From assembly GCA_039707465.1 (NCBI GenBank), contig CM077646.1:83290715-83354714 (forward strand): DNA of 64,000 bases, written 5' to 3'. The stretch is from Rhabdophis nuchalis (lineage: Eukaryota > Chordata > Lepidosauria > Squamata > Natricidae). Below the pieces are notes generated by a model, which was not told where the DNA came from, did no database searches, and worked only from the letters and a program-made list of their open reading frames with translations. The position numbers and the translations under genes were made by a program. Below, piece after piece: positions 2,207 through 62,739 of the stretch. How positions within the stretch are numbered: the stretch's first letter is position 1; each line of letters starts with the position of its first letter.

Positions 2207-4270
2207 CTTCATATTTAAGAACATACACATATCCCCCGCAAGGAAATAAAAAGAACAAAGAAGAATATGTTGTGATTTTGAAACTGCAACAAATGTTGTA
2301 CAGAAAAGACAAGAGAAGAATATTAAACAACTGTTTGTGCATAATTCTAACCCTGTGTGGTTATATTTAATAAAAAAATATTGAATCAACCTATTCAATA
2401 TAAGAAAAACTTTTAGCAAAAGATTAACCAAACATTCTGATGTATATCTATTTCCAGTTAACTCTGGAATTAAACTTTGCTTGTACTAGACATCTATTAG
2501 AGTAGGTCGCCCTTTTTCAGGTAATACAGTCTTTAATCACTTTGGAAAGGCAATGATCATGTAGAAAGTAATTAGTGCCTTAATAACTAAGTTTTCTACA
2601 ACTAAACTGTAATCAAATATATATGTTTATATAAAGTACAATATTATAATATGAGGTAATTTAATTCAGCCTAGTGAAACTGATTTGATACCACTATTTC
2701 TGACAAATGGAGCTGTCTGTTAAATATACTGCATTTCCTATTTTACATCCCAAAGTTGTTCTAGTATACTTATGCTAAAATACTGCTGCTGTTAGGAGAT
2801 AACAGATTAACAGAGTTGGAAGGGACCTTTGAGGTCATCTAGTCCAACCCCCTGCCCAAGCAGGAGATCCTACATCTGCCTCTATCTAGGATTGAACTCA
2901 CAACCTCCTGATTGGGAGGCAAGAGCTCTACCTCTAGGCCACAGCAGCAGGTGACCCTCTGTTTGGCCAAGCAAATGTATAAACAATATTATAAAGAGTA
3001 TCTATAACTTTAATGACCTTTAAGAATCTAATACACAAAGCCACAGAGGGTCACTCTGCCTGGTGGACTACATTCAAATTTCTTAAGCAAATAAAAATCC
3101 CAGTTGGCTTATTTTCCAAAGCAGAACATCAGTTTATAAGCAGATGTTTGAAACAATGCTTTCAACACAAAGTATTTTTTGCTGTTTCCATTTATTTCTC
3201 GGGTAGAAAACTCCACACATTGGGTTTTACTTCATTTATAGTTTAATCAATTGTGAAAGCAAATGGGACTGAATGAATGAAAAGCATGTCAATGGGCAAC
3301 AATAAATAGTTTATTTTATATTCCCATCAGACTTATTCCAAAGGAATATACATATTATAGTTTAGATTCCCAAGAGAAACTCAGACTATCCACTGCAATC
3401 TTCCTTTAATTACATGTAGTCCTCAACTTACGACCACAATTGAGCCCAAAATTTATGTTGCTAAGTGAGAAATTTGTTAAGTGAGTTTTGCCCCATTTTA
3501 TGACTTTTTTGCCACAGCTGTTAAATGAACCAGTGCAGTTGCTAAATTATTAACATGGTTGTAAGTGAATCTGTCTTGCCTACTGACTTTGCTTGTCAGA
3601 AGTCACAAAAGGGGATCACAAGACCCCAGGACACTACAACCATCATAAATATGAACCAGTTACCAAGCATCCTAATGTAAATCACATGACCATGGGGAAG
3701 CTGGGTCATTAGTGTGAAAAATGGTCATGTCACTTTTTTTCCAGTGCCATTGTAATTCTGAACGGTCACTAAGCGAAGTGTTGTTGTGAGAACTGTTTTG
3801 TGCATATATATATATGTAGATTTTGGTTTATTCGGGTCTTTTCCCGTGTAAAATTAAAGGTGTTTTTGCAACATTTCGATGGGATCACCCCCATCATCAT
3901 CAGGCTTTGGCCTTGGCTATATGTTAGTTTTATGAGCTGATCAATAAATTAAATTAGAAGAGACCAGGATAGATCTATTTCGAGCTTATCAGCTCTCATC
4001 AGCTGGCCATACCCCTTACTGGGATTCGAACCGGGGCTATGTTGCATGCAAGGCGAGGAACCTCACACTTAAGCCAAACCAGTTCCCCTATTACATCAGC
4101 TTAGACAGGGTATATTAGTATAGGTAATTCACAACAACCTGTTATTATTAGGCCCCAATTAAAGGGAGGAGACATACTGTTTCCCTTACTGCTCATCGGC
4201 TCATCGCTAGAGACCATCCAAACAGCAAGCCAAGAATATACATACATACATACATACATACATACATACA

Positions 4271-4305
<35 letters not shown>

Positions 4306-4617
4306 GTTTTCGTAGATTTTCACGGGTGTAGGTATGCTGGCATTGCTGGCTTCGGGGATTTTCCCGTGTATAACAGACAGAAGCCTGCCTGATAATGACA
4401 AGTGAGATCTTGTCGAAACGTTGCAATAATATTTCTATGCCTTATACATGGGAAAATCCCCGAAGCCAGCAATGCCAGCATATATATATTAGATTTTTAA
4501 GGGCTGAAAATAAAGAGACCTGGATGATCTCTAGGTTGAGTCGAAGGGCAGAGAGGGATGACGTTAAGTCTCCTCCCCTTAAAGGGACCTTGAACAGGAG
4601 CTGTGAAAATATTCTCT

Positions 4618-4672
<55 letters not shown>

Positions 4673-7600
4673 GTCTCTTGTGATGAGCCGAAAGACAGAA
4701 AAGAAAAGCAGCTTGCTTCCTCCCTTAATTGGGGCTTACCAGGGTATTGTGACACAAGTATATACTTATTCCCCTGACTCAGCTGATCAGGAGGAGAACC
4801 TGGTGGCTTAGTGGCTAAAACATCTGCCTAACATGTAATACAGCCCCGGTTCAAATCCCAGTAACTATGGGATTTGGCTAGCTGATGAGAACTAAATAGT
4901 TTGAAATAAATCTATACCAGTCTCCCTTGTTTATTTATTTATCAGCATAAATGTAAACATATATATTTCAACTGTTGTCACTACATATATAAAAAACGAA
5001 AGAAAATGTCCTAAAATGAAAAGACATAAAGAATATGAAAGTATTGTTTGAAAAATAAAACGCAACAGCACATGTAGCTAATCTGTCCCCTTTAAATTTC
5101 TGTAGAACTTCTGAAATCTACATTACATTGAAAAGTTCTGATACAATATTCATGATCTGTATTTATACATTGCAGGAACATGCATGCTTCAAAAATAATT
5201 TGGAGAAGTGATTGAAACACTGCCTAAGCCCAGTACATCACTTCGTTAGGACAGTGTCTGTTTAGCTTTCTAAGCAAGCCAGGAAAAAGGAGCGGCTTCT
5301 ATTAAGAGGGCACTCATTGGCATGGATGCTTGCAACTCCTGCAGTAGTGTGGGGATAAAAGAGGCTCCTTTAATGAAAACCAGAAAGGTCTTTTGCTCAG
5401 GCAATCCCCAGAGAACTAGTTCAAATAATTTCCAATGCATGCACAAGTCTCTTAAATCTTGTAGCAGAAGAGTCAAAATAGGCTGTCGCAGCCAAAAATC
5501 AAAAGGAAACTGGAAGCCCTTTTTCATTTGCCTCTTATTTACATTTGTTAGTCTGAAATGGTACTATCAGAGTCCCTTTAATAAATAGGTAATTCTGGGG
5601 AAAAAAGTGAGGTCAAATATCTGTGTCCTTATCATGCATGATATATATCAACCTCAGAATTTATTTTAACTTGATAACTTAAACCTTAAATACTCTCCTA
5701 TTGGACTCCTATATAGGTAACAGCTATAGCTTGCTAAACTGCTAATTATTACAAGATAATCTTTTTCACAATATACACATAAAATCCATACTTCACACAC
5801 TTTTTCCACACAAATATGTGTAGCTTTGGATCATTTTCTTAATAAATAAATGAACAAGGACAATGTTGGTGACTCATTTCTTTAATTAAGTGCTTTTTAT
5901 TTTGTTTAGGGCTTGTGTGAAAACAGATCACATTTTAGGTCATACTATGGAAAAATATTGAACGCCCTGAGTCCGTTTGGAGAAGGGCGGGGTATAAATT
6001 TAATAATAAATTTAATAAAATAAATAAAATTCAAAAGGATTCAAAAACTTTTAAGCCCCACTGATACTGCCTATTCCTTAGAGCTGTGATGGTGAGGGTG
6101 GCACGTCGAGCCATATTTCTGAACTTCTGATTGGCCCGTTGTGCCTGTTTTTTGCCCTCCCCAGGCTCCGGAGGCTTTCTTCAAGCCTGGGGAGGGCAAA
6201 AACAGCCTCCCCCAGCAGAAGGCAGGAACGGAACATTTCCAAACTTCCGGTCAGCCTGTTGGGTCAGTTGTTCTCCCTCCCCAGGCTCAGGGGCTTTCCT
6301 GAAGCCTGGGAAGGACAAAAAACAGGCACAACGAACCAACTGGAATTTCTGAAATGATCCATTTACGCCTTCTGGAGGTCCTCCGCGGGGCGGAAGAGGC
6401 TGTTTTCGCCCACCCCAAGCTTCAGGAAAGCCTCTGGAGCCAAGGGAGGATGAAAATCCTTTTTAAAAAATCCACACTGGGGGTTGCACACGTACGCGTG
6501 GAAGGGCACACATGTGCGGGGGGGTGCATTTGCAGGCGGGTGGGGCACATTCAATTGTGAGTCTGAGTAACACACGTGCGCACAATTTTGTCATGCCTTT
6601 AGAAAAGGGTTAGCCATCACTGCCTTAGAACATCTCCAGCAATTGCATAGTATTAAAATTCAATATAATTCAAAATAATAATCATAATTTATTTGCTAAT
6701 ACCATCTCAAATGTTACTATGCATAGGAATGTTATTATCATGGACCTAGTGCTAGTAATATCAGTGTATATATGGTTTTTTGGGGGGGAGGAATACTTTA
6801 AGTGATATAATTGAAAAAGCCCTCTTTCTGATCAATTCCAAATTAAGAACTACAACATATGGCATAATCATCAGGGCTTTTGATGAAGATCAGAATAGTC
6901 TGACTGATTTATTTGGGAAAAGAAGTTATCTCAGGTATTGTTGTTTTAAATATTTAGGGCTTCACAGATTAATACCAGAATCTTAAACTTGGACAAAAAC
7001 GTAGCAGCCACTTTCAACAATACTGTTACCAACAAGGGCTCTTCCCATGAAACACATTATTGTATTATTTCTTGAAATAGAATTATTTTTAATTCATTAT
7101 CTTTGGAGAAGAAAATTCTAAGTTAGGTTCATGTTATAGATTTCTAGTCAACACTGGTAATTGCTCCTCGGTCAAGATTTGACATTCTCCTTCTGTTTTC
7201 AACCATCTATTTTAATCTAAACAAAGTCAGGTTACAGTTGATTAGGATATATTCTTCCTTTTGATCCAGCAAACCTTTCAACAGATTTGTCATTTTGGAC
7301 ATGCTATATAGATTTAGACAATTCTTTAATTATCATGAACCTATTTAAAGCAGGACTACTAGCATCATGTGCAATATGGACAAAGCATTTAACAGTCAGT
7401 GAATAACTACAATAATATCATTGCTATTTTTGCATGTGAACTATCATTATCACCGTCTGTGCTTTTTGATTGGGCTAATTTGAACAGAAATGAGAGAGTT
7501 TTTAATATACTTGTTCATCTTACCTCAAGAATATACTTTTCCAAGGACTTGATATCTTCCAGTGCTTGAGAATCCTGATGGATGATCACCACTTCTTTCA

Positions 7601-30700: not shown

Positions 30701-33700
30701 GAATCCACAAGTCTTTGGTCCTCCAGAGTTTTTATACTTGGAACACAGCAAATTCCTCAAAAGTCTTGGCTGAATTAACGAACAGTGGCTTTGTATCTTT
30801 GCATGGTGCCAAAGTGGAACAAACTGTAGATATTTTGAGCATTCTCAAAATTTTCGATGACATTTAATCCAAATATCAATATCAATACACATACACACAC
30901 ACATTTCAAATGATGATGTAAACATAAAACACATTTTAAAATACCATATTAAAGGGTCAAAATGTGGAAATCAAGTCTGATATAGATGCCAATTAACATA
31001 CAAGATAGTTTAATACTATTACTTTTCCCATTGGCATATTAGTACTGCAGTATGTATAAAAGGCTTTACTTTGTATACTCTATAAAAGCCTAAATTCCTT
31101 CACCTGCTTATCATAAACTAGTGAATAGAACTTGACAGAGAGCATTTCTTTACATTTAGCTGAAAAAAAAGTTTCTATCACTATAAGATGCTATTCTCAT
31201 CTACAGATGAACTTTTAGATTTAAAAAACCCCTTCATTTTTAATGTCATGAACATAAACTGCAATTTGATCCTCTTGCATTAATGATCTTTCCAGAGCCA
31301 AAACAAGCATTATGCTAAAAGATTTGAACAGCAAGATATCACTGAACAAGTTCTGTTCAGTAAGACTATTGCCTATATTTATTTTGCATATTCTTTATAA
31401 GTAGCATATGCTTTTGTTTTTAATTTGATTATGAATTGTCAAAACAAAGATTATGTTTACAAAGCTTGCTAAAAGACATTCTCCTGGGCATTCCCAAGTC
31501 AAGAATTCAACTGCACAAAATTAAAATAAGGCAGTGTTTAAGTTCACTTGGCAAAATACACATATCACATTCCCATGCCACTGACTGCCCATGTTTAAAA
31601 CAAAAGGGAAGGGAAGGGAAGGCAGAAAGCTTTATACAGTTCTACAACATGCAATATCATGAAAGTATTTTTGGAGGGTTAAAACTTCCTCCCTATTAAT
31701 TTAATGCATGAATGCTGATTTGTTGTATGCAGAATGCAGACTCAGAATGTCCCAGCATTCCTTAGAACATTTTGGTTTTTCTCCCATAATGTTCCAGTTT
31801 GGCCTTTTGGGGATGGTTACTTCATTTCCAAAAAATGAATTTTCCCATACAGAAAGCGGTTTATAGCGTTGTAGATGTTGTCTACGGTGGCTCGATAGTT
31901 AAAGTCACTGAGCTTGTCAGCTTGGAAGCTGATAGCCTGGGCTCAAGGGCCGAGTGCCGCGTAACGGGGTGAGCTCCCATTACTTGCCCCAGCTCCCACC
32001 AATCTAGCACTTTGAAAGCATGCAAAATGCAAGTAAATAGGCACCACTTTGGTGGGAAGGTAAGTTTTCCAGTGCATTTTAGCGTATAGTCATGCTGGTC
32101 ACATGACCACAGAAAAGTCTTTGGACAATGCTAGCTCATCCAAGATAAGAAACAAAGATGAGTACCCCTCCCTAGAGTTGAACATAGCTGGTCAGGGGAA
32201 ATCTTCACCTTTACCTTCGATGATGTCTAGTCCTGAAACTCAGTCTGGCTCCTTTCTAATAAGGTTGACTTCAGAATGTCAAATGACTATTTATTTGGGG
32301 GAATATCTATATGACTATTCATTAAAAGTATATGCCATCCATCACAGTATAAGGCAACTCTTAACATCCCAGCATTCACAAGAATATCAAGGTGATGTTA
32401 CAAAACTGTGTGGGGCTAAATATTTCTGACCAATTCTTTCGTTCATCTTTATGTCCAGTCTTTCGCTAGTCTCCCCACAATCTCTCACAGGAACCATCTT
32501 TGAAGAGTAATACGTTGGTCTTTATGAATTAAGTGTTACCTATTGATTAGTGCACCTCTTTCCTTCTTTGGAATCAATTTTGTCAACACATGAATATTTT
32601 TAAAAATAAATAATGCATGTTGATGGATATAGTGTACAGATATAGAAAATATTATTTCTGATCTACATGGGAAATTAAAAAGGAAAGAAGGACAGAGAAC
32701 CGATGGCAAAATGCAACACTTAAACCCTTTTAAAATTCCTACTAAAACAATTAAAAAGCACACTCAAAAGAATATTGGGGTGGGGTGGGGGAATCAATGA
32801 ACACAGAACTATATTCAGACCTTAAAAGAATAAAGCATGATCTAACATCAGCACCTTTGGAGAACTGTGATTTTGTTAACGATTTTGTTTTTATGACTCA
32901 AAGAACATTCTACTAAGTAAGACAGAAAAACAAGATGAAAGGAGATAAAACATGAACTAAAAAACTAAAGAATGACATCTGGGTATTTTGTGAGCTGATC
33001 ATAATGAACCACCGGCAATACCTCTTTAAAAAAGCATCTGATTGCAACCAGACTTTAGATTTAACTAGATATTTAAGCAATTCATTGTTAAACAGGAAAA
33101 AAAAGTAGATCACAGTACCAATAACATTGAGAATTGTTTTCCAGCAACTTTTCCACCATGTGTTCCACACGAACAAACCAACTTGGAACAGCTTTATATA
33201 TCAGAGGTGTATCTGACCTGAAAGAAATTGAATAGACAGAAAAAAATGTGGTTTTTTTAAACTATCCTGCAAAGTTTGAATGACCATATTTGGTTTCCAT
33301 CTAAAAGTTAATGGATAGATTCCAAGTGATCTTGAGTGGAATATTATTGTATCTGTTGCACCCAAAACTAGCTAAATAGTTTATATAAATGTTTTAGTAC
33401 ATCATAGACTCTTCAATGAAAACTATCAAAGGGCTAAATTCATTATGCCAACCTTAGAAATATTCATGAGTTTCTATATCTTGCAAACAAATGTATTTAG
33501 CTACAGCTGACTTAATTTTACTGCCACACATAAACCAACAGACCCCAGTTCCCCACTTTTCTATGTCTTGCCCATGATTAACAATAGTTCCTTTCGCATT
33601 GCTACATGTTATTACTAGATGAGCATGAATGACAAAAAGCTCTTAAATAGCCTCTTGTTTCATGAATAATTCTGAACCTTTTAAAATCAGTAATGGAACT

Positions 33701-42700: not shown

Positions 42701-45700
42701 ATGAATGCTAACATGCTTGAGAAGAAGGCACAGAAGAGGCTGTACTTCCTGAGAATGCTAAGGAAGATAAATCTATCTCAGCATCTACTTCTGTGCTACT
42801 ATCGCAGCAGAATGTCCTGACATATGGCATTCTTGCATGGTATGGGAGCAGCTCTGCAGCAGACAAAAAAGCTCTACAGAGAATCATTAAAACTGCCCAG
42901 AATATCACCAGGCTCCAGCTACCAGCCCTGGATGACATCTTCACATCTCCCTATTTGAGGAAGTTGCATAACATTCTCAGAGACTCTTCCCATCCTGCTT
43001 ACAATCTTTTTGGACTATTGCTGTTGCGATTATCATTCCAGGTTTTGGCAGTTCAGTAGGTTTTAAATTAGTATAGGCTTTAAACCATTGTTAGGCCACT
43101 GAATGAACCCTGAACCTAGGAAGCACACGTCATCTCGCCTGACAAAGGCTAACAAAGGCTAGTGTGTACCATCACCCAATTCTTGAAGCAATACACAAAA
43201 TGTAACTAAATGTATTTTGCTAGATAGCTGAATGTATTTTCCCAGGCTATTTTCCCAGGCTATTGAATGCGTTTTACCAAGCAACTGTATGAGCCAATCA
43301 AACTATACTAGAATGTAAGTTTCACTTTTGTGCCAATAAAAGAGCCCACACCGAGCTAGTCGGGGCGCGCTCATTTGGAGGAAAATCCCATGTGTTTCGT
43401 TCTTATTTTCCCACCGGAGCAGCCCGCCGTCTGTGGTATCGCGTTCCCTCAATAGGGGGCGCAATTTCACCACAAATGGTGACCCTCGACCTGATATCGG
43501 CTATCCTGAACACGAAGTTCTTGCCTCCGGTATAGGTATTATGTTATGTTATGTTGCTGTATTCAATGCTTGCTTTCATTAATAATGATGTTTAAAGATT
43601 TTATTCCAAAGGTGTAATCAACAACAGATAAATGTCATGTATTCTGTAGATACCATCATGGAAAAGACATCTCTTCTATTATTAGATTTTGAAGGTAAAG
43701 ACCACTGCTTTCCGTATCAACCTTGGATGAGGTGGAGTCGGATGACCCAACCCAGAAGGAGAGCTCTATTTCTCACCTACAAAAATCTCTGACATCCCTA
43801 TGTTTGATTTTTCCCCATGGCTTACAACCCTTGTTAGTGCCCTTGTTGGACCTCTGATTATATTGCTGCTTATATGTATTGTAGGACCTTTTGTATTTAA
43901 TCATGTAATGAATTTTTTGAAAACTCATTTGTCTACCATGGAAGCAATGCTCCTTGCTCACTCGCCTGAAAAAGAACCTTTTCTGCCAACAGAGGACGAA
44001 AAAGATATCATTGCAAAGGACTTAAAACGCCCGTATGCAATAGGTAGTGATGAGGAGCCAGATTGGTAGAGGGCACCTCCTTAAAAAACAAAAAACAGAG
44101 GAGATGTTGCGATTATCATTCCAGGTTTTGGCAGTTCAGTAGGTTTTAAATTAGTATAGGCTTTAAACCATTGTTAGGCCACTGAATGAACCCTGAACCT
44201 AGGAAGCACACGTCATCTCGCCTGACAAAGGCTAACAAAGGCTAGTGTGTACCATCACCCAATTCTTGAAGCAATACACAAAATGTAACTAAATGTATTT
44301 TGCTAGATAGCTGAATGTATTTTCCCAGGCTATTTTCCCAGGCTATTGAATGCGTTTTACCAAGCAACTGTATGAACCAATCAAACTATACTAGAATGTA
44401 AGTTTCACTTTTGTGCCAATAAAAGAGCCCACACCGAGCTAGTCGGGGCGCGCTCATTTGGAGGAAAATCCCATGTGTTTCGTTCTTATTTTCCCACCGG
44501 AGCAGCCCGCCTTCTGTGGTATCGCGTTCCCTCAATAGGGGGCGCAATTTCACCACATATTGCCTTTTGGCAGAAGATATAGAACAATTAAAACTAGGAC
44601 CACACGCCTTCTGAATAGCTTTTAACCCAGAGCTATAATTGCACTCAACAATGAACTAAAGTGCCACCATCAGTGAGCTATTGGACAGAACTACTTGGTC
44701 TGTTGTGTGGATGTTTGGGAGGTTTAGGGTCGGGGAATTTTTTGGTGGGTGGGAGGGTGTTTGGAGTTTTTTGTGTGTGTTGGGCCTGGTCTCTGGGTAT
44801 TATGTGAATTTCGTTGTATGTGTAAACTGTATATACGTAAAATGATAATAAAGTAAAGTAAATATAGTATATAGATATTAAAAGTTTTAACTGATTTATT
44901 AGCTATTCCTTAATCAAAAACTACTATTTAGGGCAGATATATAACTAGCCTTGTCACCTGAATTAATGAACCTTAACAATGGATTTCTCTACATGCCTAC
45001 AGTACATGAATGGGGCTTTTGTTGGTGGCTCCTTTAACTCATTAACCAGGATTGAGACCTTGTTGTTACTTCCCTTCAGAAAATCTCTGGATAGAAGTCC
45101 AGGTATAGCAACACTCTGAATTCAACGCAGAGCACTGAAATCACTAAACATGTATTTATTAGAAAAAGTTATTCCCTTTAAACCAGTGTTTTTCAAACTT
45201 GGCAATTTTAAGGTGTGAACTTGAACTCTCGGAATTACCTAACCAGCATGCTGAGACAAGACATCTTAAAATTGTTAAGTTTGAAATACATTGCTTTAAA
45301 CAAATTGAAAGTTCATTAACATTTCCAAGGGGTGTTTGATGTAGGATGTGAAGTACAATGAACTCAAGAAAGCAAAGATAACAGCTGATCTGACAACTGA
45401 ATAATTTTTTAATTATCTGCTGAGAACATTTTACTATATTCTGAGTTTCCTTTGCATCAAACTCAATTCATGCAATAATTGGCAAAAGGACAGACATGAT
45501 TTGCTATGTTTCTTCTGAAATATTTTTAGAAATCTCATTCTGGCCCTCTGGTGGACACCCATCCAATTATTAACCAGATTGGACTCTGCTTAGCTTTCAA
45601 GATACGTTAAGGTTGATTAGGTATTTTCACCTGTAAAAATTGGTGGTATTTTCTCCAAGGATAGAAGAACGGGAGGGTGGCCTCAAGCTTAGCCAACATG

Positions 45701-48544: not shown

Positions 48545-51500
48545 ATTTTTATGAGCTGATCAATAAATAAATGAGACTAGGATAGATCTATTTCGAGCTT
48601 TTTAGCTCTCATCAGCTAGTTCTGGTTCGAATCCAGTAAGAGTATGACTAGCTGATGAGAGCTAAAAAGCTTGAAATAGATCTATCCTAGTCTGATTTAT
48701 TTATTGATCAGCTCATAAAAACTAACACACACACACACACATACATATACAACTTCTTATAATCTGACTCAAGTGTTTCAAAGTATGTGGCATATAAATG
48801 TATGTATAAATAAGGGAATAGGTTTATTACAAAAGAAACAATGTTCCCCTTTTGCAAACTACAAGTGTTTTCTGTTATCCTTGATTCTAATACAACACTA
48901 AGAAATAAAGTATATGTTTCTCCTAAAAGATAATTTAATCACAATAATTCGAAATTCTTCCAATTAAAATCTGCCACCAAGTAAAATTGATGGAGAAAAA
49001 TCATTTGGCCAAAAATGCCAAATTTGTCCAGCATCTCTATCATTTATATCAGATCTTAACTGTGGCCAAAATATAAGTCCTAGAGCTTTACAAAGGCAAA
49101 AAATGTTTCATTGCATACAAAATGCAAATCTGCAACTCCTTTAAGCAGCTGTGACTTGTCTCAGACTTGCAAGCTCCAGTTATCAGGCTGGCTGCTCAGA
49201 GTCACCTTGAACTGTCAGATAGGCAGCAAATAAATTTAATAATAAAAAATATGTAAGTCAAATGCATGTGGTTGCAACCAGCCATGGCTTGTTTAAAACA
49301 TTTACCAAACAAGGGATAAACGTCATATTCACACATGACATTAAGGGAAGGGTAAGCAAGTTACATCATGGCTTCAACTTCTGCAGTTGCAATGGTTTCT
49401 GAAAAATAGGCGCATCCGCAGCTGAAATTCCTCATTCTACACTTTAAAAAAAAATGAAGTCCTTTTCTCATTTGAATTTTGTCATCTTGCCGATTCTTCC
49501 TGATTCTGAATATACATTTTTTTCAATGTTGTCTTAATTTTTATAACTAACTCAATGCAGTGAATTGTCCTCCTTCCTTCTTTTTTCCCCACAACAACAT
49601 TGTGGTATGAGTTGGGATGAAAAAGTGACTAGCCCCAAAGTCATTCAGCTGGCTTTTATGCCTATGCAGGACTAGAACTCACATCTCCTGGTTTCTACCT
49701 TACCTTAAGCACTATACCAAACTAGCTCTCCATATGTTAACTTTGAGTAATATTTATTGGAAACTGAAGCTATTCGTGGCAGAGTTGAGGGTTTCCTTAA
49801 GAGGTTTCTGTGAGCTCAAAACAAAATCAACAACCAATTTTCTGGTTGTTATATGATTTCCAATTGCACACACTTCTCAGCAATTCTGTAAGCTGCAAGC
49901 CACCTTGATTGAGTTAAGAAACACCAAATATAGTTGCGCATTTATTGCGCATATTGCGCAATTAATGCCATTTTTGTAGCAATGTCTATGAGCTACAGTA
50001 TTTTTCTTTTTGCATGTCTCCTCCCAAAATAAGCGAGTTTTCAAGAACACAGTGTGCGTCAAAATAAGACAATAGTCATTTGTGCACATTGTATTCCAAC
50101 AAAAGCTATTTTTAGAAAGAAAAGCCCAGCTTTGAATAACTCATTTTGAGAAGGTCAAAGTCATCACAAGCTTGTTGAATAACTCATTTTGCTATTTCAC
50201 AGAAGAAAAACCTGGCAGCAATCAGGTGAGTCCTTTCTTCTCTTTTTTTTCCTCTCCCTTCAAGATTTGCTGAATTAGCTGGACACTCTGCCTACTCTCC
50301 AGTTATTACAAGAAAAGCCTTCCAGAGGCTAGGGATGGGTATGTCAGAAGATGTTGAGCATCTTTTTTTAAGCAAATAAAAGATTTCTTTTTTTCTTCCC
50401 AAAATTAATTGAGAAAAAAATGCTTAAGATATTCAGTTCAAGCACTTGAGGCATCTAGGAACAGTTCACAAGAAGTCTTATATTAAACAAACTTTGGTGG
50501 GGAGACAGTTCTCGCGTACTGACCACTTGTTCGGTGACTGAAGTTACGACAGAACTGAAGGAGTAATGCTTACAATCAGTCCTTGAAGTTCCAGATATGC
50601 ATATTATGAATATTTGCAGACAACTTCCATGTAAAGAAAGGCAGATATGTGCAGCTACCGTGAGAAGATTCACAAAATGGTTGTCATGACAGGTAGCTTC
50701 CCACAACCATAGTTGTAAAGCTTGTTTCCTAGCACCTGTTTTCGCTTGTTATACTCTTTCTGTTCACCTTATATTTATCTTTCTTCATGGATGAATAGGC
50801 ATACTTCTAAGCAAATCACTGGACTGCTGCACTTTAATAATGTTCTCTAATAAGATCTCTGGGGCCGGAAAGGAACCCCAAGGCATTGTTTTAAATAAAG
50901 ATGTAGCTAAACATTGGCATTTTGGTTTGAATATGCCATACCTGTATTCCCATTAATTTTTTATTATTATTTTTTAAAAAGCCAGGCACAATGGCAGTTG
51001 CCACAGGCACAATGGTTCTCACATACAAGACCGCTAGCAATACATTTTAGCTTAATTAAAGGTTCACAAAATCTCAATAAAACCCCAACAGATATGACAT
51101 AATGAACAAAACAAATAAAAGCAATTTATTAAGGAACCAGAATTCAGAATATGCGAAAATATAAAGGCTTTGCATCAAATGAACAGCTGTAATAGTTTGA
51201 AACAGCCTTTAGCTCAGCACACAATTGGCAGACCCTGGTTTAGAATCTAAAACTCTCTTACGCCTAGACATCAAATGTCTAAAGAAAGTGGTCTGGTATG
51301 TTGAAGTACCCTCAAACAATGATAGTTGACAATTATGTGACTTTGCCACTATACAGTTCCATCCAAAATATAAAGCACTGTACCTTATAATTCTGGTGAG
51401 ACTCAAAGTTGGAAAGGGGTGTATTACATGCAGTTGAGAAGGGCATAACTTTAACTCCTCGGTATACCAATCCTTTGTCATATAGCTGTTTGAAAACCCA

Positions 51501-56133: not shown

Positions 56134-56164
<31 letters not shown>

Positions 56165-56821
56165 TACAACACCCCGTTAAGCCCCAATTAAAGGAGGAAG
56201 CATACTGCTCTCCTTTTCTGCCTTTCGGCTCATCACCAGAGACCATCTAGACAGAAAGCTATGAGTTCCGTTGTGTACTTATTTTTATAAGTGTGTTAGG
56301 TTTTTGAGCTGATCAATAAATAAGGGAGACTAGGATAGAACCAGTAGTCTAGTGGCAATTATAGCTGCCTCATATGTAATACTTCCCTGGTTCGAATCCC
56401 AGAAAGGGTATGGCTAGCTGATGAGAGCTAAATAGCTCAAAATAGATCTATCCTAGCTCCCTGATTTATTTATTGATCAGCTCAAAAACCTAACACACAT
56501 ATAAAAAAGTACACAACGGAACTAATAGCTTTCTCTCTAGATGGTCTCTGGTGATGAGCCGAAAGGGAGAAAAGGAAAGCAGTATGCTTCCTCCCTTAAT
56601 TGGGGCTCAACAGGGTGTTGTGACACAAGCATATACTTATCCTCCTGTCTCAGCTGATCAGGATAAGAACCAGTAGTCTAGTGGCAATTACAGCTGCCTC
56701 ACATGTAATACTTCCCTAGTTCGAATCCCAGTAAGGGTATGGCTAGCTGATGAGAGCTAAATAGCTCAAAATAGACTATCCTAGTCTCCCTGATTTATTT
56801 ATTGATCAGCTCAAAAACCTA

Positions 56822-56861
<40 letters not shown>

Positions 56862-61273: not shown

Positions 61274-61402
61274 GGTATGTATGTATGTATGTATGTACGT
61301 ACGTACGCACATACATATATATATGTTAGTTTTATGAGCTGATCAATAAATTAAATTAGAGAGAGATTTATTTAATTTATTGATCAGCTCATAAAACTAA
61401 GC
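61274..61402. repeat. (TGTA)n and short palindrome of the ribozyme-repeat tail
   Basis: TGTA/CGTA units at 61276-61310. Then the tail 'gttagttttatgagctgatc' (minus) and its inverted partner 'gatcagctcataaaactaag' (plus) face each other across ~20 bases; the tRNA and ribozyme parts are missing. Confidence 0.7.
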
Positions 61403-61429: not shown

Positions 61430-61724
61430 AACATCCCAATTAAGGGAGGAGACATACTGTTTCCTTTTCTGCCTTTCAGCTCATCACCAGAGACTGTCTA
61501 GACAGAAAGCCATGAGTTCTGTTGTGTGAATTTTTTAATATGTGTGTTAGTTTTATGAGCTGATGAATAAATAAATCAGACAGACTAGTATAGATCTATT
61601 TCGAGCTTTTTAGCTCTCATCAGCTAGCCATACCCTTACTGGGATTCGAACTAGTCTGTCTGGTTTACTATTACTGGGATACTAGTCTCTCTGATTTATT
61701 TATTGATCAGCTCATAAAACTAAC

Positions 61725-61760
<36 letters not shown>
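61430..61760 (-). repeat. tRNA-like / hammerhead repeat, copy G, with monomer junction
   Basis: Minus strand order: box B-like GTTCGAATCCC, hammerhead (61629-61583), tail, then without a break the 5' domain of a next monomer (61550-61430). An extra plus-oriented tail at about 61664-61715 starts with CTAGTC, i.e. at the predicted cleavage point. (AC)n follows. Confidence 0.72.
61583..61629 (-). ncRNA. hammerhead ribozyme candidate, copy G
   Basis: Minus strand: GGCTAG, CTGATGA, GAGCT/AGCTC with AAAA loop, GAA, ATA-GATC-TAT, cleavage base A (AUA triplet), CTAGTC. Core intact; AUA is permitted by the NUH rule but usually slower than AUC. Confidence 0.7.
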
Positions 61761-61764: not shown

Positions 61765-62739
61765 CAAACTAGAATTCCAAGCCTGTCACTTGACAGAAAT
61801 TGGAAGCAAAAGCTGACTTCATATTCCAACTTCTTAGAAAACAAATAAACCAAGGATTCAAGGTGAATGTCAAGCGTATCACAAACCAGCAATGGAAATT
61901 TCCTGTTTCATTTAATCAGTTTTTAACTAAGACCATCAGCAGGAGAAAGACCAAACAGATTGAATTGTTTGGCATGCCAAAGCACACTTGCAAGGGCTTT
62001 AGCGCTGCACACCAAAGCAAATACGATGCAGATGTTCTTCTCACAGCACTCCTTCATTACAGTTTTTAGATATACTGGTTTGATCTCAAATATCCCTATA
62101 TTGCTTACGGCAAGGATTTTCCCTTCCTGAAAAAAAGCAAACTAAACACACACATGCACAGCTCTTAAGTGATTCACTGCTCTTGCCGCAGTAAGGAACC
62201 GCACCTGTAGCAGAAAAGCAATGTAACAATGACCGGGCTATAGAGGCTGCTAAAATATCAGACTCCATGCATATGCCAGAGTATTTATTTTTGGCCCATT
62301 TCTACCAACTGAAACACTGCACTGAGACAACAGTATTCAGGAACCACAGGGCACATTTTAAATATAATAAATATCAATGCAATGCGATGCAATGCAAAAT
62401 AAGTTCAGAGGTAATTATTTTGTACGTCTTTTAGCGGACTATTTAACAGGACATGTTGTGTATGGGCTTGGATGAGCCATGTATCCATTAACCCTTGCGA
62501 CACTTTTGTCCGATCTGATGCGTCAGAATTTAATTCCCACAATTTTCAATCTGCACGATTCTAGAGTTAGGAGTCTATTGAAGGTTATTGTTGTATTGGA
62601 TTCTCAAGAAGGAATGTACATTTCAGCTCTTCTTCAAAGCCGTATAAAGGAGTGCTCGAATTTTTCTACAAACTCCGGAGCCAGCGCCCCGTAATACAAT
62701 CCTCATGATCAGCAGTTCTTAACCTACCTTTCGACAAGC
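61765..62739. other. intron 1 segment with two unexplained frames
   Basis: Frames of 89 codons (61800-62069, plus) and 71 codons (62479-62694, plus) show no family that I recognise and have no promoter or splice context. The interval may hold old repeat remnants. I do not call a gene. Confidence 0.35.

Follow-up and report, generated by a model that had tools for sequence, protein, structure and literature searches.

On the minus strand of the window, the 64 kb of DNA analysed here, positions 3962-4008 have the look of a hammerhead ribozyme, and the question raised by this locus is what that ribozyme belongs to and by what means it came to lie there. The earlier note on this DNA gave an account of the ribozyme alone, leaving out the tRNA-like boxes, the hairpin, the tail, the head-to-head copies and the neighbouring fragments of Penelope-like elements (PLEs) that are described below. 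The motif belongs to a repeat some 328 nt long, comprising a tRNA(Val)-like region with A and B boxes, a hairpin and an AC-rich tail. We regard this repeat, with moderate confidence, as a retrozyme-like SINE that is likely transcribed by pol III, is predicted to cut itself mainly as a dimer and was likely inserted by a PLE enzyme.

The window as a whole reads as the IARS1 gene of a vertebrate, and a SNORA84 snoRNA (62219-62352, minus strand, 101 bits) lies near exons of a class I tRNA synthetase. Elsewhere, positions 31957-32108 (plus strand) match at 77.9% over 113 nt (E 1e-17) an approximate consensus of the squamate ACA SINE, a clue that the vertebrate host is a squamate, and an open frame at 43746-44069 (plus strand), which by eye resembles the C-terminal tail of a retroviral Env, is probably a fragment of an endogenous retrovirus.

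The hammerhead and the paired change in its stem I

Read on the minus strand, the segment runs GGCCAG, CTGATGA, GAGC, TGATAA, GCTC, GAA, ATA, GATC, TAT, C and CTGGTC. As had been claimed, every position of a type I hammerhead core fits; C17 falls at 3968, the predicted cut lies between 3968 and 3967, and the ribozyme is of the retrozyme or PLE sort. A full descriptor, requiring the core, a stem I of 5 bp or more, stem II, a stem III of 3 bp or more and U16.1-H17, gave four matches in the 64 kb, this copy, which we call copy A, among them, and none in 100 dinucleotide shuffles. The window holds seven hammerhead copies (A, B, F1, F2, C, D and G). Four of these satisfy the full descriptor, with the core CUGANGA...GAA, A15.1-U16.1, H17, three helices and an open stem I, and three do not; both hammerheads of C and D (56412-56458 and 56741-56786, plus strand) have G12 changed to A in the core, and stem I contains a single mismatch in copy B and another in copy F1.

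Against the Rfam covariance models, with which the earlier note had proposed to check copy A, the copy scores at best 30.1 bits, to HH9 (RF02275), whose cut-off is 52, and none of the seven window copies reaches an Rfam gathering cut-off. HH9 is also the top hammerhead model for G (27.9 bits), F2 (27.8) and F1 (26.9), and with a window maximum of 30.1 bits none of them passes the threshold of this amniote family; RF00163 (cut-off 34) is the top hammerhead model for D (29.7), C (27.4) and B (19.0). Around F1/F2 and G some microRNA models outscore the hammerhead models, yet stay below their own cut-offs; we attribute these scores to the tendency of inverted repeats to give them. Outside the window, at least nine genomic places pass RF00163 among the 73 of 227,684 candidates that were scored, and seven of the eight passing places that were fetched are copies of the hammerhead SINE-like element. 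The top RF00163 match among the scored candidates (38.1 bits; L001:1501-1543, or G000:C4:77436078-77436120) is a separate hammerhead-like sequence and not the ~328-nt element.

As a monomer, copy A has a three-helix hammerhead fold of -8.0 kcal/mol, against an energy minimum of -14.2, and stem III costs 1.7 kcal/mol. The three-helix fold described earlier is, for the monomer, not the energy minimum, and its stem III is marginal. When two strands are folded together, the predicted minimum is a double hammerhead with a palindromic 10-bp stem III (-37.0 kcal/mol, against twice -14.2), in line with the earlier suggestion that the palindrome favours a dimer. The hammerhead is predicted to cut itself mainly as a dimer, and a dimer is also what amphibian retrozymes are reported to need in the accessible part of PMC7229834. 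No same-strand copy lies near copy A in the window, so that its own transcript could hardly form a dimer in cis; diverged by about 26% from the C-D unit, copy A is probably a fossil with an intact core.

What had singled out copy A is a double change in stem I, from U-A to C-G, and all six other window copies indeed keep U-A. The statement that most other copies read GGCTAG and CTAGTC holds for D and G (2/6), which carry both strings, whereas the remaining four differ at other pairs. Pairing statistics drawn from the window are only suggestive for stem I, with two double changes, a number equalled by 26 of 500 shuffles. In the 1.918-Gb host genome, a core pattern that leaves stem I free except for one base has 7,886 exact matches (3,844 + 4,042), and 14,048 with stem II left free as well; the control gave none in either case. 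The genomic sample used below is made up of eight Rfam hits and the 100 places that head the list of matches, which lie scattered along contig C1; it is not a random one. Among its 103 distinct copies, stem I pair 4 is UA in 69, CG in 30, UG in 2, CA in 1 and UU in 1, and all six stem I pairs are intact in 88. Since 29 of the 30 C-G copies share the loop AATA, the change to C-G appears close to one ancestral subfamily event inherited by many copies. Counted over 23 distinct stem I combinations, there are six double changes against 2.9 in shuffles (38 of 2,000 reach six), and overall pairing is not clearly above the shuffles (177 of 2,000 reach it). Stem II shows no double change in 136 genomic copies, so that of copy B stands alone. 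The view that the paired change reflects a maintained RNA fold therefore holds in part: the change is real and stem I covaries at pair 4 genome-wide, but essentially through this one event, and the C-G pair is best read as a subfamily marker.

A 328-nt unit with tRNA-like boxes

One unit of 328 nt, from cleavage site to cleavage site, lies between C and D at 56453-56780 (plus strand), within a partial tandem of about 1.5 units (56332-56830) whose boxes are at 56345-56398. Copy A extends over 3922-4230 (minus strand), from unit position 76 to 43 across the cleavage site, with A and B boxes 44 nt apart at 4023-4076 and the conserved hairpin of its 5' region at 4184-4230; copy B occupies 4671-4965 (plus strand), with boxes at 4804-4857 and its hammerhead at 4876-4922. 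Four of the 10 same-strand core spacings below 700 nt in the genome sample measure 337-347 nt. Non-coding, between 150 and 450 nt long, present in tandem, furnished with type I hammerheads and free of an LTR, the unit has the make-up of a metazoan non-LTR retrozyme. Its GC content is 39%. Folded as a circle, the unit reaches -79.5 kcal/mol (z -1.3), a stability at least equalled by 20 of 200 shuffles; the highly self-paired circle reported for retrozymes is thus not apparent here beyond what shuffles give.

The A and B boxes lie upstream of the hammerhead and are the window's only three box pairs, all 44 nt apart, where shuffles gave a mean of 0.01. The same arrangement recurs across the sample: a B box occurs no more than 60 nt upstream in 58 of 104 genomic cores (55 of them at 28 or 29 nt), compared with 1 of 101 control stretches, and 40 of these 58 also have an A box, most commonly at a spacing of 44 nt, the control covering the B box only. 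The likeness to tRNA-Val comes from ARAGORN, which at a lowered threshold calls copy D tRNA-Val(cac), one copy in four, its other calls being spurious, and from a match of 69.6% over 56 nt (E 0.13) to an approximate tRNA-Val query; the Rfam tRNA family is absent from the lists at E<=10 that cover copies A, B, C and D.

A run of four T residues is a pol III stop. No sense-strand TTTT occurs in the 1,811 nt of window copies (joint shuffle P 0.006), its absence from any single copy being weak, with chances in dinucleotide shuffles of 0.72 for the unit, 0.39 for A and 0.30 for B. Of the 57 genomic copies that are 250 nt or longer, 48 lack TTTT on the sense strand, and a single one lacks AAAA.

The hairpin at unit positions 76-122 also shows paired changes, less striking genome-wide than in the window, where 4 of its 14 pairs covary in four copies. 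Across 68 distinct genomic copies its pairing is 95.0% against 94.3%, a small gain that none of 500 shuffles reaches, with eight double changes against 1.4 in shuffles and one pair with 11 G-G mismatches. We considered a second, type III-like hammerhead in this 5' region (GUGAUGAGCYGAAAG) and rejected it, as the GAG pairs in the conserved inner stem instead. At least one further subfamily is visible among the genomic loci, reading GTTCAAATCCCAGTAGAAGGAGTATGG near unit position 267 after a different upstream part. Exact patterns had no match in viral contigs (three patterns) or prokaryotic genome contigs (one pattern), which is little informative.

Head-to-head copies, clustered 3' ends and Penelope-like neighbours

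The window contains ten copies of the element in both orientations, forming four tight head-to-head pairs and the loose pair A/B, whose members are 440 bp apart and only 71% alike. F1 (48548-48619, minus strand; hammerhead 48575-48621, core intact, outermost stem I pair open) lies head-to-head with F2 (48622-48731, plus strand; hammerhead 48646-48692, core intact). Copy H (56160-56338, minus strand) starts 5 nt ahead of the cleavage site, crosses the tail, continues into the 5' region and ends in ACACA beside (GT)n. The tail-only copies E- (61316-61363, minus strand) and E+ (61372-61400, plus strand) are again head-to-head, as are G- (61435-61654, minus strand), which includes T-arm, hammerhead (61583-61629, H17 = A), tail and 5' region, and G+ (61679-61728, plus strand), which starts 3 nt before the cleavage site and ends in (AC)n; E+ and G- are tail-to-tail neighbours. 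F1 and F2 are 97.3% identical over 74 nt, above the match of either to other loci at comparable length, and among the window pairs only this one argues clearly for a single event on sequence grounds. The E and G pairs (100% over 29 nt and 96% over 50 nt) do not, because short matches between loci are equally good: copy A matches E- at 100% over 41 nt, and F2 matches G+ at 97.5% over 40 nt.

In the genome sample, 85 of 86 segments supplied 264 copies for a count of this layout. Neighbours separated by 60 nt or less are arranged -+ in 69 cases, +- (tail-to-tail) in 31, ++ in 12 and -- in 11, and the head-to-head excess is absent at 61-500 nt (-+ 12, +- 16, -- 17, ++ 9). Head-to-head inverted copies with partial tandems are the layout typical of PLEs, the excess here being limited to gaps of up to 60 nt.

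In the window, 8 of 10 3' ends fall within one 16-nt span, 36-51 nt past the cleavage site (0 of 100,000 random draws), while heads are scattered, and 6 of 10 touch an alternating microsatellite, compared with 1.9% of random positions. Among the 264 genomic 3' ends, 128 lie at unit positions 33-64, 63 of them exactly at position 47 within ACACACA, and 89 at 145-192. The first group runs into an alternating microsatellite at 85 of 126 ends examined, for a null of 6.9%. With 31 of 88, the second group is less clean, and breaks between subfamilies may account for part of it. Several 3' ends at 169-176 run into (TCTA)n or (GATA)n and not into AC or AT repeats. Alignment breaks between subfamilies account for some copy ends, above all heads at 241-288, and a stop of reverse transcription at the tRNA T-arm was rejected for these heads since many of them are such breaks. 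An enrichment of heads near the cleavage site was suggested by the ten window copies, four of which start within 13 nt of it (binomial 0.006), but did not recur in the genome sample (25 of 262).

Beside these copies lie three PLE fragments, each with a 3' limit set by eye: P1 (3816-3905, minus strand), in which a minimal hammerhead overlapping the start of an open reading frame is followed by a tail; P2 (4387-4478, plus strand), with G8 of the core changed to A; and P3 (56860-56949, minus strand), which abuts the (AC)n tail of copy D. P2 sits within a long inverted repeat at 4333-4480 (CTGGCATTGCTGGCTTCGGGGATTTTCCC and its complement, by eye). In the minimal hammerheads of P1-P3, four of six stem II pairs show compensatory changes (7 of 500 shuffles reach that), the open frame begins at stem II and the 3' ends fall, by eye, about 54-56 nt past the cut in the three blocks. 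A Pfam scan of 10 window ORFs found no reverse transcriptase, and no autonomous PLE came to light there. In the genome sample, 40 PLE blocks occur in 26 of 86 segments; 33 of the 40 lie within 200 nt of an element copy, for a null of 0.285, and at 60 nt or less there are still 16, for a null of 0.106. Neighbouring PLE blocks are arranged -+ in 10 cases and -- in one, 12 of 18 contacts between PLE and element are 3' to 3', and a microsatellite flanks only 16 of the 40 PLE 3' ends.

It is chiefly because both families share layout and sites that we propose a PLE as the partner of the element. Within a partial tandem, transcription would start at the tRNA-like promoter of one unit and continue across the following one; cutting by the hammerheads would leave RNA of unit length, which a host ligase may close into circles. 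A PLE protein would then bind the RNA near its tail and cut both strands of AC/AT-rich DNA, and two cDNAs, one per DNA end, would begin internally at the AC-rich site and later join head to head. Insertion ends in AC-rich sites past the hammerhead appear to fit the internal start of reverse transcription known from the Anolis PLE PAc, which in vitro cuts and extends both DNA strands and starts at two internal sites, most often an AC-rich stem loop (PMC11167929). The two-ended priming is our own inference; PMC3846280, in its accessible part, reports that inverted PLE copies are most often head-to-head and explains them instead by self-priming on an antisense template. The tail of the element, which has no demonstrated homology to the PLE tail, counts against the link. 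Nor need each insertion have had an active ribozyme of its own: C and D share the core-killing G12 change, which suggests that theirs did not, and since hammerhead mutants left PAc insertion in vitro unaffected (PMC11167929), cutting is possibly not obligatory. More tentatively, the element could be called a SINE of Penelope elements: a pol III repeat whose hammerhead and AC-rich tail would form the entry signal for the PLE reverse transcriptase, whose RNA would be trimmed or circular, and whose copying from both ends of a break would yield the head-to-head pairs and 1.5-unit tandems.

Several of these features would also be expected of an ordinary tRNA-derived SINE moved by a LINE, with the hammerhead as a passenger or as a trimmer of RNA ends: the A and B boxes keep tRNA spacing, SINEs usually have 5' ends that vary, 3' ends that cluster and a tail of simple repeats, and known squamate SINEs depend on LINEs (PMC7983390, accessible part). 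We nevertheless consider a LINE unlikely, given that the head-to-head arrangement prevails among close neighbours (69 -+ against 31 +-) and that H, G- and C to D run from the tail into the next unit, both of them PLE traits, and that PLE fragments occupy the same sites. That three of seven window copies fail the full descriptor, C and D with a dead core, would suit a fossil passenger ribozyme spread by DNA recombination or as a satellite, its intact cores reflecting the youth of some copies, and inverted duplications can originate at the DNA level. Such a history seems quite improbable beside 7,886 exact genomic cores, the 100 listed being scattered along contig C1, the six intact stem I pairs kept by 88 of 103 copies across the subfamily change, and the clustered 3' and scattered 5' ends, which point to reverse transcription. 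The tail-only pair E (61316-61400) resembles a foldback element, but a foldback or MITE-like DNA transposon with the tails as inverted terminal repeats is very improbable, as H, G- and C to D continue past the tail towards the next unit's 5' region, and as only the 3' ends cluster, the 5' ends being variable, where DNA-transposon termini should be fixed at both ends. Finally, that the host gene has domesticated an intronic ribozyme, as with HH9 in RECK, is scarcely credible: copy A does lie among class I tRNA-synthetase exons (IARS1 by our own reading), and HH9 is the top hammerhead model for four window copies (26.9-30.1 bits), but copy A is one of thousands of genomic core matches, and the window holds ten copies in both orientations.

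Comparison with known systems

The retrozyme-like SINE that we favour bears on a gap in the retrozyme literature: according to the accessible part of PMC7761336, retrozymes seem to be without promoters and no motif reveals the autonomous element that mobilises them, with PLEs as likely candidates. The present data supply, from one genome with thousands of core matches, sequence evidence on both points, with tRNA-type boxes and a scarcity of sense TTTT for the promoter and PLE-type geometry for the mover. Should the more tentative reading as a SINE of Penelope elements be correct, an amniote would provide both the promoter and the autonomous partner whose identity has escaped the authors working on retrozymes. 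The element, a non-coding template that has a hairpin and a covarying stem in its ribozyme, could also serve as direct test material for PLE biology. tRNA-hammerhead SINEs are already known in Schistosoma (PMC2770079, PMC4918200, accessible parts) and retrozymes in amphibians (PMC7229834, likewise), and none of the papers listed by searches of the open-licence literature, at most 40 per search out of up to 21,156, is on a hammerhead SINE in reptiles; as far as those papers show, a Val-like tRNA-hammerhead repeat with PLE-type insertion structure is new in a reptile.

Among squamate repeats, the LINE-dependent SINEs Squam1-3 share the tRNA-like head and the variable simple-repeat tail, whereas the element studied here has a head-to-head, PLE-like layout, and the word 'ribozyme' is absent from the main texts of PMC7983390 and PMC10702118. 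The intronic hammerheads HH9 and HH10 of amniotes and those of Xenopus repeats, as far as the available text of PMC3088659 describes them, resemble the element in that HH9 is the top hammerhead model for four of the seven window copies; the element differs in being a multicopy repeat that scores below the HH9 cut-off, and the family may be relevant to how the intronic hammerheads that amniotes have kept arose. Schistosoma Sm-alpha resembles it in combining a tRNA-derived region with a type I hammerhead in a SINE-like repeat; there, however, the tRNA is tRNA-Gln and the host a flatworm, whereas here it is Val-like and in a vertebrate, and the likeness is one of architecture, as described in the accessible parts of PMC2770079 and PMC4918200.

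The non-LTR retrozymes of the axolotl, with repeats of 330/350 bp, come closer: by the accessible account in PMC7229834 they share the type I hammerhead with a short palindromic stem III, a unit of about 330 nt with some tandems, a GC content below 50% (39% here) and PLE fragments in the same genome. The snake element departs from metazoan retrozymes, as described in the available part of that literature, in its many head-to-head copies, and from retrozymes generally (PMC7761336, in part) in its tRNA-like boxes. The Poseidon PLE of Anolis, PAc (PMC11167929), in turn has a hammerhead followed by an AC-rich start of reverse transcription, and it cuts and extends both DNA strands, as we propose here; like that of PAc, the start codon of the P1-P3 fragments lies at stem II. 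Compared with PAc, the element is non-coding, has a full three-stem type I hammerhead and carries a different tail sequence.
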